From NCBI RefSeq assembly GCF_014295415.1, contig NZ_CP052909.1, positions 2,604,001 through 2,668,000 on the forward strand: 64,000 nucleotides of DNA. The letters are read 5' to 3'. A program made the position numbers and the translations under genes. The stretch comes from Constantimarinum furrinae (GTDB taxonomy: Bacteria; Bacteroidota; Bacteroidia; Flavobacteriales; Flavobacteriaceae). Positions 46,227 through 62,333 of this stretch are shown one piece after another. Every line of letters begins with the position of its first letter. Positions within the stretch are counted from its first letter, which is position 1. The notes under the pieces were generated by a model. The model was not told the origin of the DNA and made no database searches. It saw only the letters and a list, made by a program, of their open reading frames with translations.

Positions 46227-46718
46227 ATGAACTATTTAAATCTAAAAAAAAGTGAAACTGCCCAGGTAGCTAAAGAGCTCAATGTCTTGTTGGCAGATTA
46301 CCATTTGTATTATCAAAAACTACGGAATTTTCATTGGAATGTAGTAGGTAAGAATTTCTTCGACCTGCACATAAAATTTGAAGACATGTATGAGGATGCA
46401 AAGTTGAAAGTAGATGAGATCGCAGAAAGGATCTTAACACTACGCTATCAGCCGGTGAGTAATTTTTCGGAATATTTAAAAATGTCGAACCTTAAGGAGT
46501 CTCCTTCCGACATTAAAGATGTCGAAATGGTGAAAGCACTCTTAAGCGACCATGGAGATATTCTTAAACAAATGACAAAGGTCATTGAACAGGCAGAAGC
46601 TGTAGGCGATGAAGGAACTATCGATCTTTTAGGATCTTATGTTGCAGATCTTGAGAAAATTAGCTGGATGCTGGACGCCTGGAGTATGAAAAGCGGTGAT
46701 AACCACCCGGAAGCATAA
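46227..46718 (+). CDS. dps: Dps-family ferritin-like DNA protection protein
   Basis: 163 residues from ATG 46227 (MNYLNLKK); upstream in-frame codons precede the likely promoter and are not counted. Four-helix bundle with the Dps inter-subunit ferroxidase residues: YYQKLRNFHWNVVGKNFFDLH (two His) and FEDMYEDAK (D, E). Dodecamers oxidise and store iron and protect DNA in stress and stationary phase. The end (SGDNHPEA) lacks a basic DNA-binding tail. The next ORF begins 20 bases later on the same strand. Confidence 0.93.
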   Translation: MNYLNLKKSETAQVAKELNVLLADYHLYYQKLRNFHWNVVGKNFFDLHIKFEDMYEDAKLKVDEIAERILTLRYQPVSNFSEYLKMSNLKESPSDIKDVEMVKALLSDHGDILKQMTKVIEQAEAVGDEGTIDLLGSYVADLEKISWMLDAWSMKSGDNHPEA

Positions 46719-46737
46719 TCTTTTTCATTTTACCTAC

Positions 46738-47601
46738 ATGAAACAACTCGTAGGGGTTTTCATTTTGGCGATACTTAATTTAGGATGTCAGGATTTGGGT
46801 AAACTCCAAATCCTCGCTTCCTTACCGGGAGAATTAAAAGAAATAAGCGGCATCGAAAAAATAAAGGGCAGCGAATTGCTTTGGGCGATTACCGATTCAA
46901 AGAACGCTGCCGACATTTTTGGTTATAATACTAAAACGAATAGCATTGATAGGGTAATTTCACTAGAAAACGGAACAAACGTCGACTGGGAAGACATCGC
47001 AGGCGATGGAAACGGAAACCTGTATGTAGGTGACTTCGGAAATAATCGCAATAAAAGAAAAGATCTTACCATTTATGGCATTGAGAATGTCTCTAATTTT
47101 ACAGCCGCCAGATCCAGTACAATAGCCACTGTCACCACCTTCAATTTTGAAGATCAAAAGGAATTTCCGCCTAAAAAGAAAGATCGCAATTTCGATGTAG
47201 AAGCATTTATCGTAAAGGATGGTTTTTTCTATCTCTTTACTCGAAACAGGAGTTCACATTTTGACGGAACCACAAAACTTTACAGAGTTCCCACAAAACA
47301 GGGAAGTTTTGAGGCTGAATTAATAGGAAGCTATAAAACTTGCGAAGATGATGATGACTGCCAGATCACTGCAGCCAGTATCGATCGTGATGCGGGAAAG
47401 ATAGCGCTCTTAAGTTATAATAAGGTCTGGATCATTTCAGAATATAAAGGCGATCAATTTTTTAAAGGAAAGATCGAAAAGATAAATCTGGATCACAGAT
47501 CACAAAAGGAAAGTGTAACCTTTAAAAACTCAGAAACGCTGTATATAGCAGATGAACTTACTGGAATTGAAGGTGGCAATCTTTACGAATTGCCTATTTA
47601 A
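46738..47601 (+). CDS. Beta-propeller lipoprotein of unknown function
   Basis: 287 residues from ATG 46738. Signal with lipobox LNLGC (Cys about residue 17), so it is membrane-anchored and extracytoplasmic. Repeated strand patterns (LWAITDSKNAADIFGYNTKT, DIAGDGNGNLYVGDFGNN, FNFEDQKEFPPKK, EAFIVKDGFFYLFTRN, ASIDRDAGKIALLSY) suggest a six- or seven-bladed propeller similar to SdiA-regulated/phytase-like proteins. VDWEDIA and FDVEAF may be calcium or ligand sites. Function unknown. The end overlaps the convergent phosphoesterase-barrel gene by 4 bases. Confidence 0.7.
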   Translation: MKQLVGVFILAILNLGCQDLGKLQILASLPGELKEISGIEKIKGSELLWAITDSKNAADIFGYNTKTNSIDRVISLENGTNVDWEDIAGDGNGNLYVGDFGNNRNKRKDLTIYGIENVSNFTAARSSTIATVTTFNFEDQKEFPPKKKDRNFDVEAFIVKDGFFYLFTRNRSSHFDGTTKLYRVPTKQGSFEAELIGSYKTCEDDDDCQITAASIDRDAGKIALLSYNKVWIISEYKGDQFFKGKIEKINLDHRSQKESVTFKNSETLYIADELTGIEGGNLYELPI

Positions 47602-50600
47602 AAAGTAAATCCGAAGCCAAAAGTAATGCGGGTTCCTTCTTCCCCTGTGAATAGATTTACATCACCCCTTAAAGCATCGGTCCAGCGAACCATCATACCT
47701 CCTCCATAACTGCCATGCCAAACATCGGAAGTATCATTCTCTACCCAAACTCTTCCAATATCATAACCTCCGTAAACGCCTATAGCCAAAGGAAAAAAGA
47801 AGGTTTTTATCTTTTTGAAATCGTACGCCAGATCGGCGCTTCCCAAGGCACTGTGTTTTCCGGTAAAACGCTGATTCCGATATCCTCTAAATCCGGTATT
47901 GGAACCCAAATTTGCACTGTTATAAAATTGAGGCATATCCCCGATCATGCCCGTGGTTTCCACTTTTGTCTTAAGCACCAGTCTGTTATTACTTAAAAGT
48001 GAATTGTATAATATCAACTGAGCATTTCCATATCCTGTAATGGCATTACCCTCCAAATCATCAATTCCACCTACTGTCGTTTCGAAGAGCATTCCTTTTG
48101 ATGGGAAGTCGGTGTCGTTGATATTTTTATAGGCATACGTTGCAGACGGAATTCCAAAATATCGTCTTTCACCAAAGGCTTCAGGTGAAGTTCCGTCTAT
48201 GATGTTGGCACCATTTCGGAATATTTTAACTGTTTTCAGGTTATATTTTATCTGAAAAAAGCTGCCGTACACACCTTCCGTTTCCAGCCCTACTCCCCCT
48301 TCAAAGATCTCCAAATTGACACGGTTATAATCCAGGCTCAGTTGTGCTTCAGGGTTATTAGTCTCATTTCCGAAGCCAAAGAAATTTTCGGTATAATTCT
48401 TTGACGTGTATCTGGTATTCAGAATAAAATTAAATTTTGATAATATAGCGGCATATGCTTTGTTAAACCTAAGGTCCAAACCCTGTGTGAGGAATTGATA
48501 ATTTAACAGAACTTCGGCTTTTCTGCCATACGGGTTTTCGATAAACTCATTAACAGTCTTTTCATATCCCGCCTCCAATACGGTACCATCATCCGGATTA
48601 AAACCAACCTTAAATGAAATGCCACCACCCGTGGTCGGCTCTTTTTTATAATCGTACGTATTCGCCTGATAGAAGTTCGTCATTCTGAAATTTGCTCCGC
48701 CTCTGTTTACAATATCATTTTCCTTATCTCTTCGGTCGTAGACCTTTATTCGCCGCCCTTCCTTTAGATCGTAGCTGTCTTTTTCCTGTCCGCCAATAAT
48801 TCGTATCAATACAGGCTTCTTGGCAGTACCGCTGCTGGTAAAAACATCTTTATCGTCCAAGCCGTATAACCATACCTCTCTTGTATCTTTACTGTTAAAG
48901 GTTCTGCTGAATAACGCCTCCCCTTTCTCACCGTCTTTAATACGAAAGGCCGAGATCTCCGTTTCGCCATTTGGTTTTCTTACTATGTCGAAATGGTCAT
49001 CCTTATCGGTTCCCGTTAGTACCTGAAACTGTATAAAGTGATCGAAATAGCGTTCTACAATATGTACCAGATTATTTTTGCGTTGAAGAAAGTTCTCCTT
49101 TATTTCTTCAATAGTACCGTCTTGAACTTCTTCCGGTAACGCCAAAAAAGCCTCATTTAAGGTCTGTTCGTCGATCGCTTGTTGTAAAAATTTCGCCTGT
49201 TGAATCCATACTTCCTTGTCGCTTCGCTTTATGAGCGCTCTGTCGAGTTTGGATCCGGCCTTATTAAACCATTTAACATCGTAAATATCGGGCCCATAGA
49301 CACCAAACTGATTTACACTTCCCATGATATTGCGGAGTAAGTTCAGAAAGGAACCGTCAAAATTTGCAAATACCTGGTCCCTGTCGCGGGGAATGGGCAC
49401 AAAAACTGTTTTTCCCTTTTCATTTTCAAAAACCGCCCAGCGCCATTGATCGCTGTGTCTGTCCCAGTCGCCAATGAGCATATCGAAGATACGGGCACGT
49501 ATATATGTCACTTCATCGAGTACATTGTCTTCATCCTCTCGAAGCATTTTTAAAAGATCGTCGGTACTTTCTATATCGTCTGGATAACCAAAACTTTTGC
49601 GGTTAGTGTATTCTTCCGAAGGGCGTTCCACGATCATATACAATTGGTCCCCGTATTCCTCATTGTATTTCCCAAGTCGCTTTTGCTGCGGAACATAATA
49701 CAATTCGGGTGTGGTATAATACACTTCGGCAGCTTTTGCGATCTTCGGAATAGCGAAGGCTGCATAGGGATGCGCCGCCGTATAAAAGTCAAGTATCAGA
49801 TTTTCGGGGATGGTCCTCGAAAAATATTTCTCTCCATCAATGCCTTTGAAAGGAACGGTCTCCAGAAACTGGACCGCACTTTTCTTTAGAGCCCGCATAT
49901 TGTATTCTTTACCGTCTTTCGTCTCCAGTCGCAACGATTTGGTTTGATGTCCACCCCCCGGCCGAATTACCTCCAGCCCGCCATAAAGGGTATCTAACAC
50001 CGCTGTTGGAACGGTTACCTGTTTCCCATAAACTTCGCGATAATGGTTTCCCCAAAAGGATTTGAAAAAGTCACTTTTTTCTACTTTGTCGAGTTCATAT
50101 ACCGAGGTAGTGTAGGTCTTCGGAAAACGGGTAGGCAGACTGTCAAGATTGGGTTCTACAACAGGAGTGAACAACTTTTTTCGGAATAAGAGCTTTTCTT
50201 TTTCCCCTTCTGAAACTCCATAAAAATTTGTCCAAACACTACCATCCTTCAAAATATCCAAGGTGGCATAGCCCTTTTTACCGTAGGAAAACAATCCGTT
50301 ATCGCTTATTGATACCGGGCGTGTTTCGGAAGCTGCCCCACTCACAATTTGTTTAAAATTTCCGCTTTCAATGTACTGAAGATTCAATTCGTGGCCCGAC
50401 ACCATTACGATTCGATGATCCTCTTCATCTAACATATTACTAAGTCTGGCCATTAATTCATTATAGCGTTTATTATACCGATCCTGCGTGGAGATGGCCC
50501 CTTGGGACCTTATCTCGGCGATTAACGTTGCCACTCCGGGTAGGGGGATATCTCCTTGCAGCGGAAAAATATGATCCCTGAAGGAAAACCTTCCGCCGTG

Positions 50601-51257
50601 ACTTCCATTGGTAAACATTGGATGATGCATGGCAAATACGATAAGTTTATTTGCACTCTTTTTGAACTCTCCCTCTATTTCCTGAAAAAATTTGTCCCTG
50701 GATTTGATCTCGCATTTATCATTCATCTCATGCAGTTTATCCCAATCTGCAATATACCACTGACTATCGATCACAATAAGCTGAATATCCTCTGTAATTT
50801 CAACACTCTCTATGGGACAGCCGTTATTTGGAGTAAGTACATCTTCTTTATCCAACTTCTTTTCAAGATAATCTTCAATGACTTCCAGACCGTCTATAGC
50901 ATCAAGTTTCCAGTCATAATTTCCGGGTATAAAAAATGCATTGGCCTGCGACGCATTTACCAGATCAATTTGAGGATCAAGTTCCTTTTTAGCCCGGTCA
51001 TTATTTTTTGCCGAAATATTATCCCCGGTAAACAGAATGTTGTTTTCGGTTTGCGGCTGGCTTTCTATTTTTTTCTGAATAGCATCTAACACGACTTTTG
51101 ATCGCTCCCCACCGGCATTTCCCAATATATAGAATCGTTGTTCAGTCGCTATGGTGTTACTTTCTGTGAAATCCTGAGGCTCATCGAGCATGACTCCATG
51201 AATAGCGCAAGAGCTGAAGATCCCTGCCAATACAACTAGAAATATAATTTTTTTCAT
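47598..51257 (-). CDS. Phosphoesterase/kinase-like/Omp85 lipoprotein, copy C (phosphoesterase motifs degenerate)
   Basis: 1219 residues, third in the operon. Lipobox FSSC lipidates C17. Calcineurin-like domain (about 40-345): GNAG (N47 for the metal Asp), GDN (D79), GNYD (Y114 for His), HH (211-212) and GHEL (L291 for the last His), so the metal site looks incomplete. Middle domain (about 385-670): GGGHQT (434-439), K459 in MRALKKS, DWDRH (D599, H601) and PIPRDRDQVF (D625, D627), resembling atypical kinases. C-terminal barrel (about 830-1219) has the Omp85 loop signature FRGYRNQRF and ends with aromatic-rich strand FGFGFTF. It starts 8 bases after the middle copy's stop. The role is unknown. 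Confidence 0.82.
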   Translation of the reverse strand: MKKIIFLVVLAGIFSSCAIHGVMLDEPQDFTESNTIATEQRFYILGNAGGERSKVVLDAIQKKIESQPQTENNILFTGDNISAKNNDRAKKELDPQIDLVNASQANAFFIPGNYDWKLDAIDGLEVIEDYLEKKLDKEDVLTPNNGCPIESVEITEDIQLIVIDSQWYIADWDKLHEMNDKCEIKSRDKFFQEIEGEFKKSANKLIVFAMHHPMFTNGSHGGRFSFRDHIFPLQGDIPLPGVATLIAEIRSQGAISTQDRYNKRYNELMARLSNMLDEEDHRIVMVSGHELNLQYIESGNFKQIVSGAASETRPVSISDNGLFSYGKKGYATLDILKDGSVWTNFYGVSEGEKEKLLFRKKLFTPVVEPNLDSLPTRFPKTYTTSVYELDKVEKSDFFKSFWGNHYREVYGKQVTVPTAVLDTLYGGLEVIRPGGGHQTKSLRLETKDGKEYNMRALKKSAVQFLETVPFKGIDGEKYFSRTIPENLILDFYTAAHPYAAFAIPKIAKAAEVYYTTPELYYVPQQKRLGKYNEEYGDQLYMIVERPSEEYTNRKSFGYPDDIESTDDLLKMLREDEDNVLDEVTYIRARIFDMLIGDWDRHSDQWRWAVFENEKGKTVFVPIPRDRDQVFANFDGSFLNLLRNIMGSVNQFGVYGPDIYDVKWFNKAGSKLDRALIKRSDKEVWIQQAKFLQQAIDEQTLNEAFLALPEEVQDGTIEEIKENFLQRKNNLVHIVERYFDHFIQFQVLTGTDKDDHFDIVRKPNGETEISAFRIKDGEKGEALFSRTFNSKDTREVWLYGLDDKDVFTSSGTAKKPVLIRIIGGQEKDSYDLKEGRRIKVYDRRDKENDIVNRGGANFRMTNFYQANTYDYKKEPTTGGGISFKVGFNPDDGTVLEAGYEKTVNEFIENPYGRKAEVLLNYQFLTQGLDLRFNKAYAAILSKFNFILNTRYTSKNYTENFFGFGNETNNPEAQLSLDYNRVNLEIFEGGVGLETEGVYGSFFQIKYNLKTVKIFRNGANIIDGTSPEAFGERRYFGIPSATYAYKNINDTDFPSKGMLFETTVGGIDDLEGNAITGYGNAQLILYNSLLSNNRLVLKTKVETTGMIGDMPQFYNSANLGSNTGFRGYRNQRFTGKHSALGSADLAYDFKKIKTFFFPLAIGVYGGYDIGRVWVENDTSDVWHGSYGGGMMVRWTDALRGDVNLFTGEEGTRITFGFGFTF

Positions 51258-51265
51258 GTCTTTTC

Positions 51266-54200
51266 TTAAAATGAAAAACCAAATCCGAAAGAATATCGTG
51301 TTCCTTCAGAAGAGTAAAATCCTGAAAAAGTTCCTTGTAGTCCACCGGGACCGTTCAGCCAGAAACCTCCTCCCACATCGCTGTGCCATTTGTTGGATGA
51401 AAATGAGGGCACCCATACTTTACCAACATCGGTGCCGGCGAATAATCCCATTTGTATTGGGATCAGTTCAATTTTAAACTCATTAAAGCTAAACCGCAGG
51501 TCTGCACTTCCCACTAAAGAGGACTTTCCGGTAAAACGTTCTTCTCTGTATCCTCGTAAACCTGTATTTGCGCCTAGCTTAACACCCTGATAAAATTCAA
51601 ATTTATTGTCGAAGTTAAATTGTCCTCTAATATTCGTTTTTAATACCAGGCGACGGTTCTTTACCAGGCTATTGTAAAAACCTAGCCTCGTATCGAGAAA
51701 ACCAAACAATCGGTCGATATCCTGTAAATTATCGGTTACCCCAATATGAAGATCAAACATCATTCCTCGGGAAGGATTTCGGGCGTCATCAAAACTTCGG
51801 TAATTGTAAATTCCTTCAAGTGTACCAAAATAATCTGTTTCATTTACTTCAAAAGTAGAAGTTGGGGCTGCATTGGAATTCACCGGAGTTCCAACAGTTA
51901 TGGCATTAAATTTAGTCTGAACCTTGTAAAAACTACCAAAGCTGGAGTTTCGCAACAGTCCGGCGTTAGCCGAGATAGTTTGTATTTCCACACGGTTATA
52001 ATCGAATCCAAGGGATGCTTCTGGGTTTACGGTCTCATTTCCATAGCCAAAGTAATTTACGGTGTAATTCGGACTAGTAAAATAGGCTCCAAAGCTCAGG
52101 TTTTTATCATCCTGTATATTCGCAAATTCCCCGCTGTACTCCACATCGAAGCTCGAAGTGTCGAAATAATAGGACGCACGGGCTACATGACGTTGAGAAA
52201 ATGGGTTGCGTTGGTAGTTATTCACCTGATAGGTATATTGAAAGCCGGGGGTAACCCCATCGTCAGGATTATACCCCAAACTTGCCGAATAACCATTAAT
52301 TCTGTTGATCTGTTTTCGGTAATCGTAAGTATTTAAATTGTACACATCGGTAAAACGTACACTTCCCGAATTGTGTATTTCAAGGTTATTTTCCCTGCTT
52401 TCGTGATCATACACTTTGGCATTACGTCCGTTTATTAATCGAAATGTATCAATTCCCTGTCCACCAACAATACGCACATAAATTGGCTCCGTACCTTCCC
52501 CTTTTATCTCGAACGTATCCTGTCCGTCAAGTCCGAATATCCATATCTCGTCGGTATCGATGGTTCTGAAAGTTCTATCTATTAATGGCTTCGCAAGTTT
52601 TGCTTTAAAATTTGGATAAACCTTTACATTGGTCTGTCCGTCCGGAAGTCGAGTAATTTCAAAAAAATCATTGAAATTACTTCCTTCTATTGTTTGCTGT
52701 TTTGCGAGGTATGTGTAATAACGGTCTGCAATATCTACCAGGTTCCCTCTTCGTGCTTTGAGCGTTTTAATAATTTCCTGCAACGATTCGTCCCTAACCT
52801 CTTCCGGAATATTTAAAAATGCAGTGTCAATGACTTCATCACTTAACTTTTGCTGAATCTCTCTCGCCAGATACAACCAGTGTCCTCTCCCGGCCCGTTT
52901 TACCAAAGCCCGGTCCAGAATAATTCCTTCTTTATTGAAAAATTCGAGATCCCGTATATCATCTGTATATAAATGCCGCTGATTATTGCTTCCGAAGATG
53001 GATTTTGCCACATCGAGAATATTCCCTTCTAAGTTCGAAAATGCATCGTCTCTGTTTCTGGGAATTGGCACATAAACATTTAAGCTGTCACGGTTAAAAT
53101 ATTCGGCCCAACGCCAATGGTCACTTTCCCTGTCCCAATCGCCAATAAGCATATCGAAAAGTCTGGATTTAATATAATTGGATTCATCTATGGTTATATC
53201 GCCGCGACGCCTTAGCTTAATGAGGATATCATCGGTAGACTCAACGTCATCGGGATATTTAAAGGTACTGAGTCCCTCACTGTCCTCGTTGGGTTCAATA
53301 GAAATATAATACAATGCGTCTCCAAAGTCTTCGTTGTAATTTCCAAGACGTTTTTGTTTGGGCACATAAAAGAGTCTAGGTGTCGTTTTAAAAATATCGA
53401 TGGCGTCGGCAAGATCTGGAACTGCCATAATCGCATAGGGGTGTGAAGCGGTATAAAAATTACTGCTGAACGACTCAGGTATCGATACCTCTTCTATGAT
53501 CTCTGTATTTTGTGTTGGATCTGATTCTTGGGGGTCTGAAGGCGCCTCTAACCTTGACTGATAGTCCAAAACATTTTTTTTCAAGGCCCGCATACGGTAT
53601 TCATTACCTTGCTCGTCCCTTAATCGCAATGATTTGTAATTTTCACTGCGGCTTTCACCTATGACTCTCACCCCTCCAAAAATAGAGTCCAAACGCCCAA
53701 TGTTCGCTACCACGGGTTGGCTGTAGACATCTTTATATTTGGCCCCCCAAATAGTCTTAAAGTACAACGTTTCCCGAATGGAGTCGGGGGTGTAAATAGC
53801 TGCAGTTTTTGTTCTTTCTGAATAGGGAATTACGGGTAAATTACTTACGTCATATTGTTTTCTGGGAGGAAGCATTTCCTTCTGAAACAGCAATTTGGGT
53901 TTAAATTCCGGCCCAACTCCATAATATCGAACCCAAGAAGAGCCGTCATCAAAAACATCCATTACCGCAAATCCTTGTCCGCCATAACTGAACTCCCCAA
54001 ACTCCCCAATGGTGGCAAAACTCGATTTAGCTCCGTTTCCGGTCTGTATCTGTATCAATCCATCCTTTTCTATATGATGCATGGTATGTTCATGACCCGA
54101 AGCAAATACTAATCGGTTGTTTCTTTGAGCCAGGGCAGCGAGACGATTCATCAGGTTATTATACAATTCGTTATATCTGTCCTGTACCGATACTCCTCCC

Positions 54201-54997
54201 TGCGATCGTATTTGAGCCACTAGAGAAGCGAGAATTGGCATTGGGATCTTTTTCTGTAGAGGATACAAATGCTTCTTTAAAGCGTAATACCCCCCATGTG
54301 TACCATTGGTGAACATAGGATGATGCATGGCAAATACAATGGTCTTATCCTGATACTTCTGCAGTTCAACCTCTATTTCAATAAAAAGTTTTTCTCTCGA
54401 TTTGATCTCACAGGATTCATTAAATGCAGGATCGGTATTCCAGTCTTCCAGATACCATTGCGAATCCAGAAGGATCAACTGAATATTTTCAGAGACTTCA
54501 ATACTTTCTAACGGACATCCTCCAGAGGGTTTGAGCATGTTCTTATCGGTGAGTTCTTTTAAATAATTTTCCTCACGCAGCAATCCGCTAAGTCCGCCAT
54601 TATACCAATCGTGATTGCCGGGAATGAAAATAACTTCTCCTTTAAATTCCTTAATGGCACCGATCTGAGCATTAATTTGATGCTCGGCGAACGATCGAAC
54701 CGGTGAACCCTCAATGGGCATACCATCCGGGTAAATATTATCACCTAAAAAAATGGCGTAATCATTCTCGGTATTTTCTTGCTTTATTAAATTCTGAAGC
54801 GCTTTTAATGCATCGCTCATTCCGTCTGCAGGGGAAAGACCGGCGTCACCTACCAGATAAAAGGTTCGTTCTATATTTTTATCTGTAGGATAAAGAGGTT
54901 TAAACTCTGGATCTCTAAATTGAACGTCATAGGTAGAGCAGGACACGAAAAAGAGTGCCGCAAATAGCAGAAGTACATGGTTCTTGAATCTGTTCAT
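51266..54997 (-). CDS. Phosphoesterase/kinase-like/Omp85 lipoprotein, copy B (phosphoesterase motifs intact)
   Basis: 1243 residues, second in the operon. Lipobox FVSC gives C20. The calcineurin-like domain (about 44-365) is complete by eye: GDAG (D51), GDNIYPDG (D86), GNHD (N128, H129), HH (225-226) and GHEH (H302, H304). The middle domain aligns with its paralogs but has lost the kinase-like marks: the Gly loop reads GESRSENYK, DRH has become DRE (E624), and PIPRDRD has become PIPRNRD (N648). K474 is kept. An acidic linker (about 483-505) is inserted after the lysine. The C-terminal barrel carries LRGYREERF and ends YSFGFGFSF. Its ATG overlaps the first copy's stop (TAATG). Confidence 0.83.
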   Translation of the reverse strand: MNRFKNHVLLLFAALFFVSCSTYDVQFRDPEFKPLYPTDKNIERTFYLVGDAGLSPADGMSDALKALQNLIKQENTENDYAIFLGDNIYPDGMPIEGSPVRSFAEHQINAQIGAIKEFKGEVIFIPGNHDWYNGGLSGLLREENYLKELTDKNMLKPSGGCPLESIEVSENIQLILLDSQWYLEDWNTDPAFNESCEIKSREKLFIEIEVELQKYQDKTIVFAMHHPMFTNGTHGGYYALKKHLYPLQKKIPMPILASLVAQIRSQGGVSVQDRYNELYNNLMNRLAALAQRNNRLVFASGHEHTMHHIEKDGLIQIQTGNGAKSSFATIGEFGEFSYGGQGFAVMDVFDDGSSWVRYYGVGPEFKPKLLFQKEMLPPRKQYDVSNLPVIPYSERTKTAAIYTPDSIRETLYFKTIWGAKYKDVYSQPVVANIGRLDSIFGGVRVIGESRSENYKSLRLRDEQGNEYRMRALKKNVLDYQSRLEAPSDPQESDPTQNTEIIEEVSIPESFSSNFYTASHPYAIMAVPDLADAIDIFKTTPRLFYVPKQKRLGNYNEDFGDALYYISIEPNEDSEGLSTFKYPDDVESTDDILIKLRRRGDITIDESNYIKSRLFDMLIGDWDRESDHWRWAEYFNRDSLNVYVPIPRNRDDAFSNLEGNILDVAKSIFGSNNQRHLYTDDIRDLEFFNKEGIILDRALVKRAGRGHWLYLAREIQQKLSDEVIDTAFLNIPEEVRDESLQEIIKTLKARRGNLVDIADRYYTYLAKQQTIEGSNFNDFFEITRLPDGQTNVKVYPNFKAKLAKPLIDRTFRTIDTDEIWIFGLDGQDTFEIKGEGTEPIYVRIVGGQGIDTFRLINGRNAKVYDHESRENNLEIHNSGSVRFTDVYNLNTYDYRKQINRINGYSASLGYNPDDGVTPGFQYTYQVNNYQRNPFSQRHVARASYYFDTSSFDVEYSGEFANIQDDKNLSFGAYFTSPNYTVNYFGYGNETVNPEASLGFDYNRVEIQTISANAGLLRNSSFGSFYKVQTKFNAITVGTPVNSNAAPTSTFEVNETDYFGTLEGIYNYRSFDDARNPSRGMMFDLHIGVTDNLQDIDRLFGFLDTRLGFYNSLVKNRRLVLKTNIRGQFNFDNKFEFYQGVKLGANTGLRGYREERFTGKSSLVGSADLRFSFNEFKIELIPIQMGLFAGTDVGKVWVPSFSSNKWHSDVGGGFWLNGPGGLQGTFSGFYSSEGTRYSFGFGFSF

Positions 54998-57900
54998 TAC
55001 ATCGATACAGCTAATCCAAAGGTTATACGAACGCCTTCATCTCCGGTAAAGACATTGAGGGTGCCACTAAGGACATCGGCAGCATTTATCCAAAATCCAC
55101 CACCAAAATCGCTATGCCAAACATTAGAAGAATCATTAGAAACCCATACTCTACCCACATCATATCCGCCAAACACACCTATTTGAATGGGTGATAAGCC
55201 TGTACGGAATGTATTAAAACTGTATCGCAGATCGGCACTTCCCACGGCGGCATTTCTGCCTGTAAATCGTTCTTCACGATATCCCCTTAGTCCTGTATCG
55301 GAACCAATTTGGGCACCCTGATAGAATTCGAAATCGTTTCCTAATCTGAATTGCCCCTGAGCCTGTGTCTTTAAAACCAACTTTCTGTCTCGTGTAAGTC
55401 CGTTGTAGAAAACCAGTAACGGATCTGCAAAACCAAATATCCTATCAGTGTCTTCCAGATTTTGTGTTCCCCCCAGATTAAGGCGAAATAACATTCCCCT
55501 ACCGGGATTCACTTTGTTGTCATAGCTTTCGTATTCGTAAGTTCCCTGGGCCGTTAAAAAATATAACGGATTTTCTATATTCGGATCGGCAAACATTGAT
55601 ATGAATCTTCCCGGTGTGTTTTCTACTTCTACCGAATGAAATTTAGTTTCCAATCTATAGGTACTTCCATATTGAGAATCCTTGGTGATTCCTATATGCG
55701 CACCATATCCTCCCAGGCGTACCCGGTTGTAATCAAGATCAAAGGCATCGGGGTTTTCATATTCAGGATTCAAGGTTTCATTTCCTATTCCGAAGAAATT
55801 TTCAGAGAAATTAGGGTTTTTATAATGACCTCCAATTACAAAATTCCATTCTTTGGTAATGTTGGCAAATTCAGCTTCATAATTGATGTCCCAACTTTGT
55901 GTCGCAAAATAGTATCCGGCATTAAAACGGTGTTGTTGAGAAAATGGATTGCGCTGAAAACCATTCACCGTGTACACATTGCTGACACCAATTTTAAATC
56001 CGTCGTCGGGATTAAACCCGATAGCAGGTAAAAACAGGTTAGTACTCAGTATCTGCTTCGTATAATCGTAAGTGTTGAAATCGTAATTCTCGGTTAAGCG
56101 AATAGCCGCACCACCTCGTTCTTCAATAGTATTATTTTTATTCTTTTGATCGTAGATCTTTATGTTTCTACCATTTGATATCTTATAGGTATCGTTATTT
56201 TGTCCTCCTATCAATCGTATAAAGATGGGGCGACTTCCATTTCCTTTGACCTCAAAGATATCATCGTCATCGAGCCCGTATACCCAGATCTCACGAGTGT
56301 CATCACGTGAAAAGGTGCGATCTACAAACAGATCTGCTTTTTCTCCCTGTTTAATTCTATACACCTTGATACTCGTTTCCCCGTTTTCCAGTCTGGTGAT
56401 CTCGAAATGATCATCTTTATCGGTTCCTGTAATCGTCTGCAGATTTGAAAAATAATCGTAAAATTCGTTTGCGATCTTAACCAGATTATCCCGTCTTCCT
56501 TTTAGTTTATTTTTAATTTCGGCTGCAGTTTCGTCCCTTGCCTCTTCAGGAAGATCCATAAACGCATTTTCAATGACCTCATCGGTAATATTTTCCTGAA
56601 GAAATTTCGCCTGAGCCACCCATTCTTCCCTGCCGTAATTCTCAACAAAGGCTCTATCTAATTTTATACCTGCATTATTAAACCATTTGGTGTGTTTCAG
56701 TTCCTCGCCATACACCTGAAATTGTCTCGATGTACTAAACAGTACTCTTACTAGGTCTAACAAACCTCCGTCGAAATTTGCATATACCTGATCCCTGTCT
56801 CTCGGGATTGGAACAAATAGATCTTTCCCGTCCCTGTCTTTAAATTCTGCAAAGCGCCATTGGTCGTTATGCCGATCCCAGTCCCCGATTAACATATCGA
56901 ACATACGGGCCCGTATATATGCCTTTTCATCTAAAACATTCTCTTCGTCCTCCCGAAGTTTTTCCAACATATCGTCTGTACTTTCAATGTCATCGGCATA
57001 ATTGAAAATCGCTCCGTCGTAAGGCTTATCCGGGCGTTCTACGATCATATATAGCTCATCACCATAATCTTCATTGAATTTCCCCAGTGCCTTTTGCTTC
57101 GGAATATAATAGAGCTTCGGATTGGTATGAAAAACGCCTGCGGCATCCGACAACTTCGGAATGGTGAATGCTCCATACGGATGTGCAGCCGTGTAAAAAT
57201 CGAGTATGAGGTCTTCAGGGATGGTATTTCTGAAGCCATCTTCTACCTCCTTATCCTTCAAAATAACAGTTTGTAAAAACTGAACAGCGCTTTTCCGAAG
57301 TGCACGCATATTGTAATCACGGCCTTCTTTATCTTTTAGGCGCAATGAGCGGGTTTGGTGCCCTCCTCCTGCTCTTTCAACGGTAAGTCCGCCATATAAC
57401 GTGTCCAGCAAGGCAACTTTGGCAGTGACCTCGGTTCCGTAGATCTTTCGGTAGTGATCTCCCCAAACGGTTTTATAAAACCCGGTTTTCTCAACGCGAT
57501 CATCTTCATAGACCGAAGCCTTTACAGTATTGGGATACGTTTTTGGTAAGCCGGAAAGATCGTATTCTTTTTCAGCTTCTATAATTTCTTTCTGAAACAG
57601 GGTTGTAACTTCAGCATTCTCGTCAGTTTTAATAAAACGAACCGATGAGGTCCCATCCTTGTATACATCCAGAACCGCAAAACCTCTTCCGCCATAGCTA
57701 AACAAACCTGTTTCGCCTAACGCAGCTCTGGTTTCATCGCCACCAGATCCTGAAATGATCTGCTTGATATTGTCATCTTCCAGATATTGCAAGGATTTTT
57801 CATGACCGGAAACAAAAACCATGCGCTCATGATCTTTGGCGAGTATATTTAGTCGGCTCATCAATTCGTGGTAACTTTCGTTATACCGGTCTTGTTTCGA

Positions 57901-58686
57901 TATCGCTCCCTGACTTCGAATCTGATATATGAGCGATGCCAATCCGGGAACAGGCAATAACTGATTGATCGCACCATAACGTCCGCCGTAGGGACCATTG
58001 GTCATAAGCGGGTGATGCATCGCAAAAATTATGGTTTTATGTTTGTTCTTTTTAAGTTCCCCTTCAACTTCCACAAAGAACTTGGCGCGGGTTTTAATTT
58101 CGCATTTGTCGTTCATTTTAGGGTGATCGTTCCAATTTTCGAGGTACCATTGAGAATCTATAATAATAAGCTGAATATTATCGCCTACTTCTACACTTTC
58201 CAGCGGACAACCATTATTTGGCTGTAATATATCTTCGGCATTTAATTTTTCTTCCAGAAGATCCTCCTCGTTTTCGAGTCCGTCGACACTGGATCTCCAA
58301 TCAAGATTCCCCGGTAATACAACCACCTTTCCCTTAAAATCCTTCAGAGCGTTCAACTGCGGCTCCAGACGTTTCTTCGCTTCAGCATTTGCTTCAGCGT
58401 TTTTATCGGGTAATCCTCCAGGATAAAAGCTATTTCCGAGGAAAATGGTATAACTGTCCTTAGTCTTTTCCGACGAGATATATTTTTTAAAGGCCGTTAG
58501 GGTCTGGTTGTGTTCTTCTTTAGAAAAACCCGCATTACCTATTAGATAAAAGGTCCTGTCGATCTCCTTATTCTTTGAAGGAGTGGTGTTTGTGGATTCA
58601 ATTTCCCTGTATTTAGGAGCATGTGAAGCACAACCGATAAAAAGAAGCGCAGTAAGAATAGTTATAATGATGTTAATTTTCTTCAT
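54997..58686 (-). CDS. Phosphoesterase/kinase-like/Omp85 lipoprotein, copy A (phosphoesterase motifs degenerate)
   Basis: 1229 residues, first in the operon. Lipobox FIGC gives C19. Calcineurin-like domain (about 44-355): GNAG (N51), GNS (N85 for the second metal Asp), GNLD (L128), HH (224-225) and GHEK (K297), so at least four metal ligands are changed. Middle domain (about 390-680): GGGHQT (440-445), K465, DWDRH (D604, H606), PIPRDRDQVY (D630, D632), close to copy C. The C-terminal Omp85-type barrel carries LRGYREERF. The start is divergent from the HD-PycTM gene over a 35-base gap. Copies A and C are more alike to each other than to B in the middle domain. Confidence 0.82.
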   Translation of the reverse strand: MKKINIIITILTALLFIGCASHAPKYREIESTNTTPSKNKEIDRTFYLIGNAGFSKEEHNQTLTAFKKYISSEKTKDSYTIFLGNSFYPGGLPDKNAEANAEAKKRLEPQLNALKDFKGKVVVLPGNLDWRSSVDGLENEEDLLEEKLNAEDILQPNNGCPLESVEVGDNIQLIIIDSQWYLENWNDHPKMNDKCEIKTRAKFFVEVEGELKKNKHKTIIFAMHHPLMTNGPYGGRYGAINQLLPVPGLASLIYQIRSQGAISKQDRYNESYHELMSRLNILAKDHERMVFVSGHEKSLQYLEDDNIKQIISGSGGDETRAALGETGLFSYGGRGFAVLDVYKDGTSSVRFIKTDENAEVTTLFQKEIIEAEKEYDLSGLPKTYPNTVKASVYEDDRVEKTGFYKTVWGDHYRKIYGTEVTAKVALLDTLYGGLTVERAGGGHQTRSLRLKDKEGRDYNMRALRKSAVQFLQTVILKDKEVEDGFRNTIPEDLILDFYTAAHPYGAFTIPKLSDAAGVFHTNPKLYYIPKQKALGKFNEDYGDELYMIVERPDKPYDGAIFNYADDIESTDDMLEKLREDEENVLDEKAYIRARMFDMLIGDWDRHNDQWRFAEFKDRDGKDLFVPIPRDRDQVYANFDGGLLDLVRVLFSTSRQFQVYGEELKHTKWFNNAGIKLDRAFVENYGREEWVAQAKFLQENITDEVIENAFMDLPEEARDETAAEIKNKLKGRRDNLVKIANEFYDYFSNLQTITGTDKDDHFEITRLENGETSIKVYRIKQGEKADLFVDRTFSRDDTREIWVYGLDDDDIFEVKGNGSRPIFIRLIGGQNNDTYKISNGRNIKIYDQKNKNNTIEERGGAAIRLTENYDFNTYDYTKQILSTNLFLPAIGFNPDDGFKIGVSNVYTVNGFQRNPFSQQHRFNAGYYFATQSWDINYEAEFANITKEWNFVIGGHYKNPNFSENFFGIGNETLNPEYENPDAFDLDYNRVRLGGYGAHIGITKDSQYGSTYRLETKFHSVEVENTPGRFISMFADPNIENPLYFLTAQGTYEYESYDNKVNPGRGMLFRLNLGGTQNLEDTDRIFGFADPLLVFYNGLTRDRKLVLKTQAQGQFRLGNDFEFYQGAQIGSDTGLRGYREERFTGRNAAVGSADLRYSFNTFRTGLSPIQIGVFGGYDVGRVWVSNDSSNVWHSDFGGGFWINAADVLSGTLNVFTGDEGVRITFGLAVSM

Positions 58687-58721: not shown

Positions 58722-59963
58722 ATGTTTAAATTTAAAAGTATGAGTAACATCATTGAAGCAACAGATGAATTCGTTCTAAATCTTTTTAAAGATAAGCTTC
58801 CAAGTACGTTTGTATACCATAATTATACCCATACAAAACGCGTATATAAAAGTATAAATGAAATTATTGAAGATTCACAATTTAATGTTAAAGATGCTAC
58901 AATCCTGCGTTTAGCGGCATTATTGCATGATACCGGATACATTGAAAAACGCGAAGGACATGAGGAGGAAAGTGTTAGGATCGCAACTGAATTTCTCGAA
59001 TCTCAGGATGTTGAAAAAGATATAATTGAGGGGGTTCAGAATTGCATCATGGCCACCAAATTCAAAGGAACTCCGAAAGGAAAATTAGAGCAAATAATTA
59101 GAGACGCCGATTCTTCACATTTTGGAAAGGATTATTTCCAGGAAGCGAGCGACTTTTTGAGACAAGAGCTCAAATCGCAGGGTATTCGAAATTATTCTCC
59201 CAGAGAATGGCGGGATGAAAATATAAAGGTTCTCATTGAAAAGCATCAGTTCTATAGTGATTATGCATTAAAAAACTGGCAACCCGTTAAGGAGGAGAAT
59301 CTTGCCAAGCTGATGAAAGAACGAAAAAAGGACAGCAAAAAACTTAAAAAGGAGCAAATAAAGGCACAAATGAAAGCCAAGTATAAGGATGCAAGTCCCG
59401 AGCGAGGAATTCAGACCTTTTACCGTGTCGCTTTGAGAAACCATATAAAGTTAAGTGATATCGCCGATACCAAAGCGAACATCCTGCTGTCTGTAAATGC
59501 CATTATTATTTCGCTTATTCTGGCCAATTTATTTTCCAAGTTCGACACCAATTCGTATCTGGTTTGGCCAACGACAGTTTTTGTACTGTCTAGTGCTGTG
59601 ACTATGATCCTGGCAGTAATTGCCACGAGACCAAACGTTACCAGGGGAGAATTTACCAAAGAAGATGTTGCGAATAAGAGCGTGAACCTTACCTTTTTCG
59701 GAAATTTTCACAAGATGAAGCTCGAGGATTACCAATGGGCTATTAATGAGCTCCTAAAAGACCGTGACTATGTGTATTCTTCACTTACTAAGGATCTTTA
59801 TTTCCTAGGGAAGGTACTCGACAGAAAATACAGAATATTGCGCCTCACTTATACCATATTCGTAATTGGCACCATCATATCGATCATTGCCTTCGGAATT
59901 TCATTTGGGGTAGCAGATATTTCGGTAGAGGAAGTTAGTAAGATCGTCGACCCGGAAGCGTAA
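58722..59963 (+). CDS. HD-domain phosphohydrolase fused to PycTM (Pycsar effector-like) membrane domain
   Basis: 413 residues; ATG 58740 (residue 7) is an alternative start. HD domain (about 12-185): H37 (in YTHTKRV), H69-D70 (LLHDTGY), H80 and D128 (IRDADSSHFG). A basic, helical linker follows (190-225). The PycTM/DUF5706-type region is about 228-400: IKLSDIADTKANILLSVNAIIIS with membrane segments near 253-271, 283-301 and 377-397. In Pycsar anti-phage systems PycTM effectors sense cyclic CMP or UMP and damage the membrane, but there is no PycC cyclase in this window. The HD part may hydrolyse a nucleotide. It is divergent from the phosphoesterase operon and convergent with the GAF gene. Confidence 0.85.
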   Translation: MFKFKSMSNIIEATDEFVLNLFKDKLPSTFVYHNYTHTKRVYKSINEIIEDSQFNVKDATILRLAALLHDTGYIEKREGHEEESVRIATEFLESQDVEKDIIEGVQNCIMATKFKGTPKGKLEQIIRDADSSHFGKDYFQEASDFLRQELKSQGIRNYSPREWRDENIKVLIEKHQFYSDYALKNWQPVKEENLAKLMKERKKDSKKLKKEQIKAQMKAKYKDASPERGIQTFYRVALRNHIKLSDIADTKANILLSVNAIIISLILANLFSKFDTNSYLVWPTTVFVLSSAVTMILAVIATRPNVTRGEFTKEDVANKSVNLTFFGNFHKMKLEDYQWAINELLKDRDYVYSSLTKDLYFLGKVLDRKYRILRLTYTIFVIGTIISIIAFGISFGVADISVEEVSKIVDPEA

Positions 59964-62333
59964 TTAGGAATTGATTTGAGTCATAAGATCATCATAAGTG
60001 TAATATTCCTTCTGATTGTCTTTTTTCTTTGAGTACAGCACGCTAACACGAATGGCTTTTAGTCCGGTAACACCCTGAAGGTCTTCTAATTCTACGATCT
60101 CGACATCTTTGTTTAGCACTTTTTTATGCTGAAGGAAAGATATGTACTTTAAGTATTCCCTTTCGTCGGCCTTCTGTGAATAGATGATCGCTATTTTTCC
60201 TGCCTGAGTGATGCGCTCGTCGGTACCTTTAATGTATGCTTTATCTACGCGTTTTTTTACGACCTCGTATCGTGCATTATAAGTGCCGTCGACGTCAAAT
60301 CGCTTTTCGTCCATTCTAAACCGCAACGCGAGGGATCCGTTGAATGCAAGGATCATTGAAGCGACATCCAGAGGGACCGGAAGCTCTTCCTTTAAGGCGT
60401 AATAATTATTCTCCATTTCGCACATCACCTGTAACTGCCAGAGTCTAAGGTTATATAGATATACCTTATTAAAACTTTTGTGTTTGGTAATGGACTCGCC
60501 TATATACAAATTGTGTTCTACTCCATCGGTCTTAAATCGTTCAAAATAATGCGGATACATTTGCTGAGCTTCCAATTGCTTCTTATCCAGCAGGGATGCC
60601 ATGCGTTTATTGATCTGCATCACCGAATCGTCGTAGTCTTTCCGGTGTTTATAAACCAGACCGGTACCTTTTTCAATAAGCTCGTAATATTCGTCCACAA
60701 AGGTCTTTAAGGTATCGTTCTTTTTGCTCAAATGGCTGAATAATGGAATCACTTCGGTTCGGATAAAATTAAGAACCTGACGTTCACTGTCTACCTGCAA
60801 CTCCTTTTTTAGATCTTTCAGATAGTCATTAATTCTGAAATCCATGTGCTCATATATAGGCAATGCTTCCAGTTTATAGATCTTACTTATTATTTTCTGA
60901 ATATGTTTCAGCTGAAGCTGAAGGTCCTTTTGTGTGGCCTGATTTCGTGCCTCTGAAGAACCCTTTACATCCATTTGTCCGTATAACGGATGTACGTCAT
61001 CGAAAACGATCTCTCTGAAATATGTGGGTGAGTTACTGGTTTTGGCCGCCAAATAACGTTTGGCTTCGTTCTTGAATTTCCAGTGAACACTTGGGTGAAT
61101 AGCCGTACATTCGTCTTGAATAATTAATTCCAGCTCGTTTTCCAACTGTTCTTTCGAACGCACCACCGCATTGATAAGAAACGGCATGACGTCTTTGAGT
61201 TTATGTGCATTAATAGTATTTAATGCATTTACCGTAGAAGATACGAGCTCTGCCACTCCTAATACTTTACCTTCGTGTACGATCGATATTAAGATCGCAC
61301 TCTTAATTCCCTGGTCCAACAGTTTTTTATAAAGTACATTGGACGGATATAATTTATGATACTTTTCTGTGTTGGTAATACAGTAAAGCTCGTGCTTTTT
61401 AAATAAGGTGTAATAAGAAACATCACAAAGTGCAGTGGTGCAGTCTTCCGAATTTTCACCATTTAAGATAAAACTATTACTTTCCTTATAGATCAGCTTT
61501 TCGAATGTTCCTTCTTCTTCGTTAAAATCGGACATTCCTACTCTTAGGTCCGGACAGGCGAAAATGGTTCTAAATATTTGTGCTATCTCATCACTAAAGC
61601 CTTCTCCTTCGTTTTCAAATCGCAATAAATGGGCTTTAAAGTCGGATATCGCCACATCTGTGGTTACATCGAACATATTTGAAATAATAAACCCTTTGAA
61701 CTCCCAGCTGTTTGGAGGAAATTTTTCCTTCCAAAGGTCGATATTATCAAAATTTTCAACTAATTCATCAACATCTTCCTGAGTGATCTCTCGTGATCGT
61801 GACGTTTTGTTGATCTCTATAAAATCACCGTTAAACACAACGCGATAGCTTCGCATCATTCCGGCCGAGTTAGGTATTTTATAATAAAAAGGCCTTCTGA
61901 AATCAACCTTATAGCCGTAGAACATGTTTAAGATCATGCTGCAACCCATAATATAAAGATGATCTGAATCAAAATTTACAAGTGAGGGAACAAAATCCTC
62001 TCCGGCATCTTCGATGATATTTTTAAAACGCTGACTCGACTTAAAGATCAACACCTGAAAAGGTGAAGTTGCCACCTTTATTTCGTTCAATGCGAGAGCA
62101 GGTGCGAAAATGTCTTCCAAAATGATATCGATTTGCGGCTGATGAACCTTAAAATCGTTTGGAGTTTTTAAACCTGAGGAAAGTTTTGGATACTGTTCGG
62201 CAATGGCAACGATTTCCCGGGCACGAACATGATTCGCATTATCCTTGAGAATAGAGCGATAATGTTCGAAGAGTTTATTAAAACTTATCTTGATATCTAA
62301 AGGAAATTCTTCCTTTTTGGTTTTCATTTTCAA
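59964..62333 (-). CDS. Large GAF-like domain protein, function unknown
   Basis: 789 residues, soluble, no signal. The middle (about 255-395) reads like a GAF sensor domain: CTTALCDVSYYTLFKKHELYCITNTEK, GIKSAILISIVHEGKVLGVAELVSSTVNALN. The N-terminal ~240 residues and C-terminal ~390 are mostly helical and unrecognised; the last 70 (KIAIIYSQKADEREYLKYISFLQHKK...) look like an alpha/beta unit. The stop codons of this gene and the HD-PycTM gene are adjacent (59961-59966). I cannot assign a ligand or output; a sensor or scaffold role is inferred from the GAF segment only. Confidence 0.6.
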   Translation of the reverse strand: MKMKTKKEEFPLDIKISFNKLFEHYRSILKDNANHVRAREIVAIAEQYPKLSSGLKTPNDFKVHQPQIDIILEDIFAPALALNEIKVATSPFQVLIFKSSQRFKNIIEDAGEDFVPSLVNFDSDHLYIMGCSMILNMFYGYKVDFRRPFYYKIPNSAGMMRSYRVVFNGDFIEINKTSRSREITQEDVDELVENFDNIDLWKEKFPPNSWEFKGFIISNMFDVTTDVAISDFKAHLLRFENEGEGFSDEIAQIFRTIFACPDLRVGMSDFNEEEGTFEKLIYKESNSFILNGENSEDCTTALCDVSYYTLFKKHELYCITNTEKYHKLYPSNVLYKKLLDQGIKSAILISIVHEGKVLGVAELVSSTVNALNTINAHKLKDVMPFLINAVVRSKEQLENELELIIQDECTAIHPSVHWKFKNEAKRYLAAKTSNSPTYFREIVFDDVHPLYGQMDVKGSSEARNQATQKDLQLQLKHIQKIISKIYKLEALPIYEHMDFRINDYLKDLKKELQVDSERQVLNFIRTEVIPLFSHLSKKNDTLKTFVDEYYELIEKGTGLVYKHRKDYDDSVMQINKRMASLLDKKQLEAQQMYPHYFERFKTDGVEHNLYIGESITKHKSFNKVYLYNLRLWQLQVMCEMENNYYALKEELPVPLDVASMILAFNGSLALRFRMDEKRFDVDGTYNARYEVVKKRVDKAYIKGTDERITQAGKIAIIYSQKADEREYLKYISFLQHKKVLNKDVEIVELEDLQGVTGLKAIRVSVLYSKKKDNQKEYYTYDDLMTQINS

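Follow-up and report, generated by a model that had tools for sequence, protein, structure and literature searches.

Few bacterial protein kinases act outside the cytoplasm, and I know of none that is part of an outer-membrane barrel protein. A fusion of a PF00149 domain, called a metalloprotease, to an Omp85 barrel was reported by Heinz and Lithgow in 2014 as the 'Metallo' subfamily of Omp85, and its distribution was described as genus-level (PMC4104836). The words 'kinase' and 'phosphatase' are absent from the text of that paper, and neither tandem copies nor reciprocal loss was found there. As for kinases acting outside the cytoplasm, the activity of CotH is abolished by substituting Asp228 or Asp251 (PMC7821199), and the pseudokinase Fam20A activates Fam20C (PMC7948968).

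Here, I analysed a window of Constantimarinum furrinae DNA, i.e. the whole stretch of 64,000 nucleotides from contig NZ_CP052909.1 (positions 2,604,001 to 2,668,000), with three tandem genes designated copies A, B, and C. Judging from their architecture, their family may be the 'Metallo' subfamily. The kinase-like domain and the reciprocal split of active sites reported below appear to be new; no description of either was found in the literature searched, which covered only a minority of subscription papers. The first-pass annotation of this DNA likewise knew of no description of the arrangement, which holds for the split, but the phosphatase-Omp85 architecture has been known since 2014.

Three tandem lipoproteins of one architecture

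The first-pass annotation had proposed three tandem phosphoesterase/kinase-like/Omp85 lipoproteins encoded by overlapping genes, and the three ORFs were recovered at the same coordinates, all on the minus strand, as are the domains given below. Transcription runs from copy C (58686-54997, 1229 aa), the first gene of the operon, through copy B (54997-51266, 1243 aa) to copy A (51257-47598, 1219 aa). The stop codon of C and the ATG of B share one base (TAATG), and the gap between the stop codon of B and the start of A is 8 nt. Thus, the three genes are likely to be co-transcribed and translationally coupled. In a protein alignment, B and C share 40% and 49% identity with A, respectively. A lipoprotein signal is present at the N terminus of all three copies (...IFSSC, ...FFVSC, and ...LLFIGC). 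Since no acidic or lysine-acidic run that would be read as a surface-export signal was recognised after the lipoprotein cysteine of any copy, a periplasmic location of the N termini was taken as the default reading.

In structural models of copy A (pLDDT 85.6) and copy B (pLDDT 82.6), the N-terminal domain has a purple-acid-type metallophosphoesterase fold. The domain of B (residues 44-385; 53843-54868) matches PF00149 in Pfam with an E-value of 5e-10, and the model of B matches pig purple acid phosphatase (1ute) in Foldseek with an E-value of 1.5e-10. The domain of A (residues 36-366; 50160-51152) aligns with human TRAP (2bq8) over 261 residues in VIA-align (Z 28.9, rmsd 2.7). The corresponding domain of C lies approximately at 57571-58557 and matches PF00149 with 22.7 bits.

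The C-terminal domain is, according to the same models, an Omp85 barrel of the BamA/TamA type. The barrel of A (residues 875-1217; 47607-48635) aligns with TamA (4n74) over 289 residues (VIA-align, Z 25.5, rmsd 2.9). In Foldseek searches, the barrel of B (residues 881-1243; 51269-52357) matched BamA/TamA with E-values of 1e-9 to 1e-12, the best being 4e-12. The NCBIfam model Omp85_fam matches the barrels of B (E 7e-10) and C (E 7.5e-16; approximately 55000-56049, also placed by alignment with A and B), both under its cut-off. The RGY/RGF loop motif of Omp85 is conserved across the copies as LRGYREERFTG or FRGYRNQRFTG. No POTRA domain was matched in Pfam scans, and the enzyme domains take up the N-terminal part.

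The middle domain has no named family in Pfam. It occupies residues 376-742 in A (49032-50132) and residues 386-770 in B (52688-53842), and together with the following linker it lies approximately at 56239-57543 in C, as judged from profile residues and motifs. When 38 diverse members were scanned with Pfam, three kinase-fold families, Fam20C (E 0.001), CotH (0.019), and HipA_C (0.11), were found amid otherwise unrelated weak matches, with all of the Fam20C and CotH matches in these members below the curated cut-off. In a search of 148 whole genomes, nothing exceeded the Fam20C cut-off, and the best Fam20C match was inside a member of the present family. Profile comparison of the middle domain with CotH by hhalign gave a P-value of 1.4e-4 and a probability of 53%. 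As controls, the reversed profile gave a P-value of 0.46, and the two remaining domains gave 0.13 and 0.56. The alignment superposes GDWDRHxDQW...PIPRDRD on GNWDNYxxNKN...IPYDYD of CotH, so that the catalytic and metal-binding Asp positions align. The G-loop, DWDRH, and PRDRD are among the most conserved positions of the family, and the order of secondary structures in the model of A is compatible with a kinase fold. In fold searches with the full-length models, the matches listed were taken up by the phosphatase and the barrel and thus none reached the middle domain, and comparison of its profile with the sequences of solved structures gave nothing useful. This weak but specific resemblance suggests that the middle domain probably has a kinase fold similar to those of Fam20C/CotH-type kinases. 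The term 'kinase-like' in the first-pass annotation is thus specifically backed by the likeness to Fam20C and CotH, with the assignment itself below the profile thresholds.

A kinase-like fold may carry other chemistry, such as AMPylation, glutamylation, or the phosphorylation of a sugar or lipid as by Fam20B. In that case, the split between the copies would be real, but it would not be one of protein kinase versus protein phosphatase. The family is distant from any characterised kinase, Fam20-fold enzymes include a xylose kinase (PMC7948968), and substrates such as glycans or lipids would fit a location in the cell envelope. The Asp positions for catalysis and metal binding shared with CotH point the other way, though they are compatible with either chemistry. 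I regard this alternative as somewhat unlikely.

Reciprocal loss across the family

Copy B keeps all metal ligands and the catalytic His of the phosphatase domain in the motifs GDAG, GDNIY, GNHD, HHP, and GHEH, and the tyrosine of GDNIY is presumably the position that ligates iron in TRAP. Ligands have been lost in A (GNAG, GDNI, GNYD, GHEL) and in C (GNAG, GNSF, GNLD, GHEK). Since the Asp of the second motif is present in A (GDN) and absent in C (GNS), the two phosphatase domains decayed by different routes. In the middle domain, the situation is reversed. A and C have intact GGGHQT, DWDRH, and PIPRDRD motifs, whereas B has the degenerate sequences ESRSENY, DWDRE, and PIPRNRD, in which the glycine loop is absent and Asn replaces the first Asp of PRDRD. 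All of the motifs cited in the first-pass annotation for this reciprocal loss were found in the alignment of the three proteins and in that of all homologs.

Is this state ancestral? The family is present in 143 of the 199 Flavobacteriaceae genomes sampled, mostly as a single copy. Since the single-copy members carry both motif sets intact, the intact bifunctional form is most likely to be ancestral. Beyond Flavobacteriaceae, the modules are mixed: besides full three-domain proteins, there are proteins of kinase and barrel that lack the phosphatase, as well as phosphatases and kinase-like proteins that stand alone. A distant genome (L133) has three consecutive overlapping genes, one each for the kinase-like, phosphatase, and barrel modules. 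Such fused-versus-separate gene arrangements are classical evidence for parts working together. A kinase-like lipoprotein that stands alone (about 437 aa, with conserved motifs; L004:1390-2703) also occurs in the C. furrinae genome (C1:2500567-2501634) and in relatives.

A total of 167 full-length members were scored for seven phosphatase ligands and eight middle-domain positions, with six of them excluded as truncated or distant. Among the remaining 161, both sites are intact in 96, only the phosphatase is lost in 47, only the middle domain is lost in 18, and both are lost in none. The absence of double loss has a hypergeometric P-value of 0.0013, which is optimistic because the members share descent. 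Each of the three copies forms a monophyletic group in the trees, and the opposite losses are fixed by clade. Random variation of the motifs among homologs, an outcome that would have undone the first-pass reading, is ruled out by these clade-fixed and mutually exclusive losses.

Loss of the phosphatase site has several origins: the group of A and C, a dispersed divergent group, L040, and L061 with L072. The middle-domain motifs are retained in every phosphatase-dead copy scored. There are dispersed older full-length paralogs (L005:13770-17492, L155, and L159-L170) that have lost the phosphatase ligands and kept the kinase-like motifs, mostly without a kinase-dead partner. Loss of the middle-domain site has two origins, one in the ancestor of B and the other in Aquimarina brevivitae (L156). 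The latter genome encodes two more copies, L072 and L155, in which the phosphatase is dead and the kinase-like site intact. With only two independent losses, a tree-corrected test has little power. The loss in B was stepwise, since the B of L005 retains PIPRDRD and that of L238 retains a part of the loop.

When 397 family genomes were scanned for DWDR with a next codon that does not start with C (i.e. not His), such copies were found in 10 genomes, and all those examined are B orthologs adjoining A and/or C. In fact, every B found adjoins an A and/or a C. Where the copies are present, the gene order is always C-B-A, and pairs of C and B and pairs of B and A both occur. A heterotrimer, which the first-pass annotation had envisaged, is not supported as a requirement in view of these pairs, as many genomes have only B and A or only C and B.

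The linkage also bears on ordinary neofunctionalisation, in which the copies acquired different substrates after tandem duplication and lost sites by independent relaxation with no cooperation. Loss of the phosphatase alone is common, and many genomes have dispersed phosphatase-dead paralogs without a kinase-dead partner, just as expected from such a process. However, kinase loss was seen only where a phosphatase-dead, kinase-intact copy shares the genome, twice independently, and B is always in tandem with A or C. I consider this explanation unlikely.

Selection and a probable division of labour

Among orthologs from different genera, the kinase-like domain of A and C is better conserved (identity 0.71-0.83) than the phosphatase domain (0.51-0.63), whereas in B the phosphatase domain (0.61-0.74) is better conserved than the kinase-like domain (0.52-0.68). 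For comparison, the two domains of similarly diverged intact homologs differ in identity by -0.02 (sd 0.05). Between close species, dN/dS is approximately 0.01-0.11 in almost all domains of all copies, with dS near saturation in several pairs. All of the domains, including the dead ones, are under purifying selection. The crossover of identity, together with the low dN/dS, suggests that the dead domains are relaxed relative to the live ones and yet retained. The model of the middle domain of B has low-confidence loops that are absent from the model of A, which fits the relaxation.

Pseudogene decay is ruled out by the low dN/dS and the full-length ORFs. Decay or an assembly artefact would account for the motif losses and nothing else, and ORFs of full length occur in many species with dN/dS well under 1 in live and dead domains alike, which makes either exceedingly improbable. 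It is also conceivable that A and C serve for binding or as scaffolds in a structural outer-membrane complex of the copies, with a pseudoenzyme phosphatase domain that binds a ligand and a middle domain that is a conserved binding module and no enzyme. The dead domains are still constrained, and one of the best fold matches (Z 27) was GAP50, a membrane anchor with the purple-acid fold, in agreement with this idea. A pure scaffold would not readily explain the high conservation of the kinase-like catalytic residues, kept wherever the phosphatase is dead. Such a role thus seems quite improbable.

I favour, as a fairly probable history, that a kinase/phosphatase lipoprotein was divided by duplication into a phosphatase subunit and one or two kinase-like subunits, each dedicated to its own activity. 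In the ancestor, an outer-membrane lipoprotein, a phosphatase of the purple-acid type would have been joined to a kinase domain similar to Fam20C/CotH and to an Omp85 barrel. This protein may have both attached a phosphate and taken it off, or sensed a phosphate before taking it off. After tandem duplication in one flavobacterial lineage, the phosphatase function may have become the specialty of B, and the kinase-like function that of A and C. The dead domain of each copy might be kept as a structural or regulatory partner that holds the complex together or tunes the activity, in the manner of Fam20A with Fam20C. The division of labour suggested in the first-pass annotation from complementary decay is now strengthened by the clade-fixed losses, the linkage of B with A or C, the recurrent kinase loss, and the crossover of rates, while catalysis is what I infer.

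In this split, the live domains would be catalytic and opposed on one periplasmic or surface substrate, and the copies would associate. ATP is not expected in the periplasm, so the kinase domain would need another donor or export. The phosphate donor in the periplasm is the weakest step of the proposed mechanism. More tentatively, and with somewhat more doubt than belief on my part, the locus might encode a reversible phosphorylation system at the outer membrane, in which the Omp85-anchored kinase subunits A and C counteract the phosphatase subunit B, the bifunctional ancestor having been split at least twice. Each subunit would then have a pseudo-form of the other enzyme on board. If true, a widespread flavobacterial family in which a kinase-like domain goes with a phosphatase, whether intact, split, or as separate modules, would open outer-membrane phospho-signalling or phospho-modification to direct tests. 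The tandem copies would be natural separation-of-function variants, i.e. kinase-dead and phosphatase-dead alleles kept under selection, and the trio would be a clear example of the duplication-degeneration-complementation process acting on domains instead of expression.

Neighbouring genes and known systems

A gene for an HD phosphohydrolase with a PycTM membrane domain (Pfam HD and PycTM; 58722-59963, plus strand) is the divergent neighbour of copy C, with 35 bases between the two. It is divergently adjacent in 78 of 139 family loci and nearby in about 30 more, including those of other families, and it may possibly be functionally linked to the present family as a candidate partner. No other neighbour of the family is as well conserved across Bacteroidota as the HD-PycTM gene, which is mostly divergent, the two starts being about 25-60 bases apart. 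In two distant genomes, the HD-PycTM gene lies beside polyphosphate kinase and SixA. A link to polyphosphate or phosphate metabolism remains a weak lead, since the PPX-PPK1-SixA set of the C. furrinae genome is more than 100 kb away.

Other genes recur around the family. A 789-aa protein with a weak match to the GAF domain (59964-62333 of the window) is conserved two genes upstream in 64 loci, and a convergent gene (46696-47601 of the window), conserved on the downstream side in 46 loci, encodes a relative of SdiA-regulated or phytase-like propeller proteins. An operon found in L144 (L144:5568-12422), and also in L143 and L141, encodes a stand-alone purple-acid-type phosphatase, a 561-aa lipoprotein, an Omp85 protein, and a protein resembling ATP/ADP transporters with HEAT repeats. 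The 561-aa lipoprotein of L143 and L144 has kinase-like motifs (DTDRRDANTM...VQDFGN), and this operon is possibly a second set of kinase-like, phosphatase, and Omp85 proteins. As a relative of the middle domain, the 561-aa protein was rejected, as profile comparison detected no relationship.

How does the trio compare with known systems? Among Bacteroidota, TamL and further Omp85 lipoproteins share the lipid-anchored N terminus and the Omp85 barrel (PMC12045153). As is generally known and also described there, TamL-type lipoproteins are TamA-like with POTRA domains, in place of which the present family has enzyme domains. The 'Metallo' Omp85 proteins were reported at the genus level (PMC4104836), whereas the present family extends across Flavobacteriaceae and other Bacteroidota families. 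The fold is common to purple acid phosphatases, including TRAP (ACP5), and Plasmodium GAP50 (Z 27-29), and B has the ligand pattern of purple acid phosphatases (GDxG, GDNxY, GNHD, H, GHxH). Unlike them and GAP50, the present family is bacterial and fused to kinase-like and barrel domains, and the ligands are lost in A and C. With CotH and Fam20C kinases, the middle domain seems to have in common the region of the catalytic loop and the metal Asp as well as an extracytoplasmic location, but it is under the Pfam cut-offs and fused to a phosphatase and a barrel. Fam20A and Fam20C provide a precedent for pseudokinase and kinase paralogs acting jointly (PMC7948968). In contrast to Fam20A, the putative pseudokinase copy B carries an intact phosphatase site.
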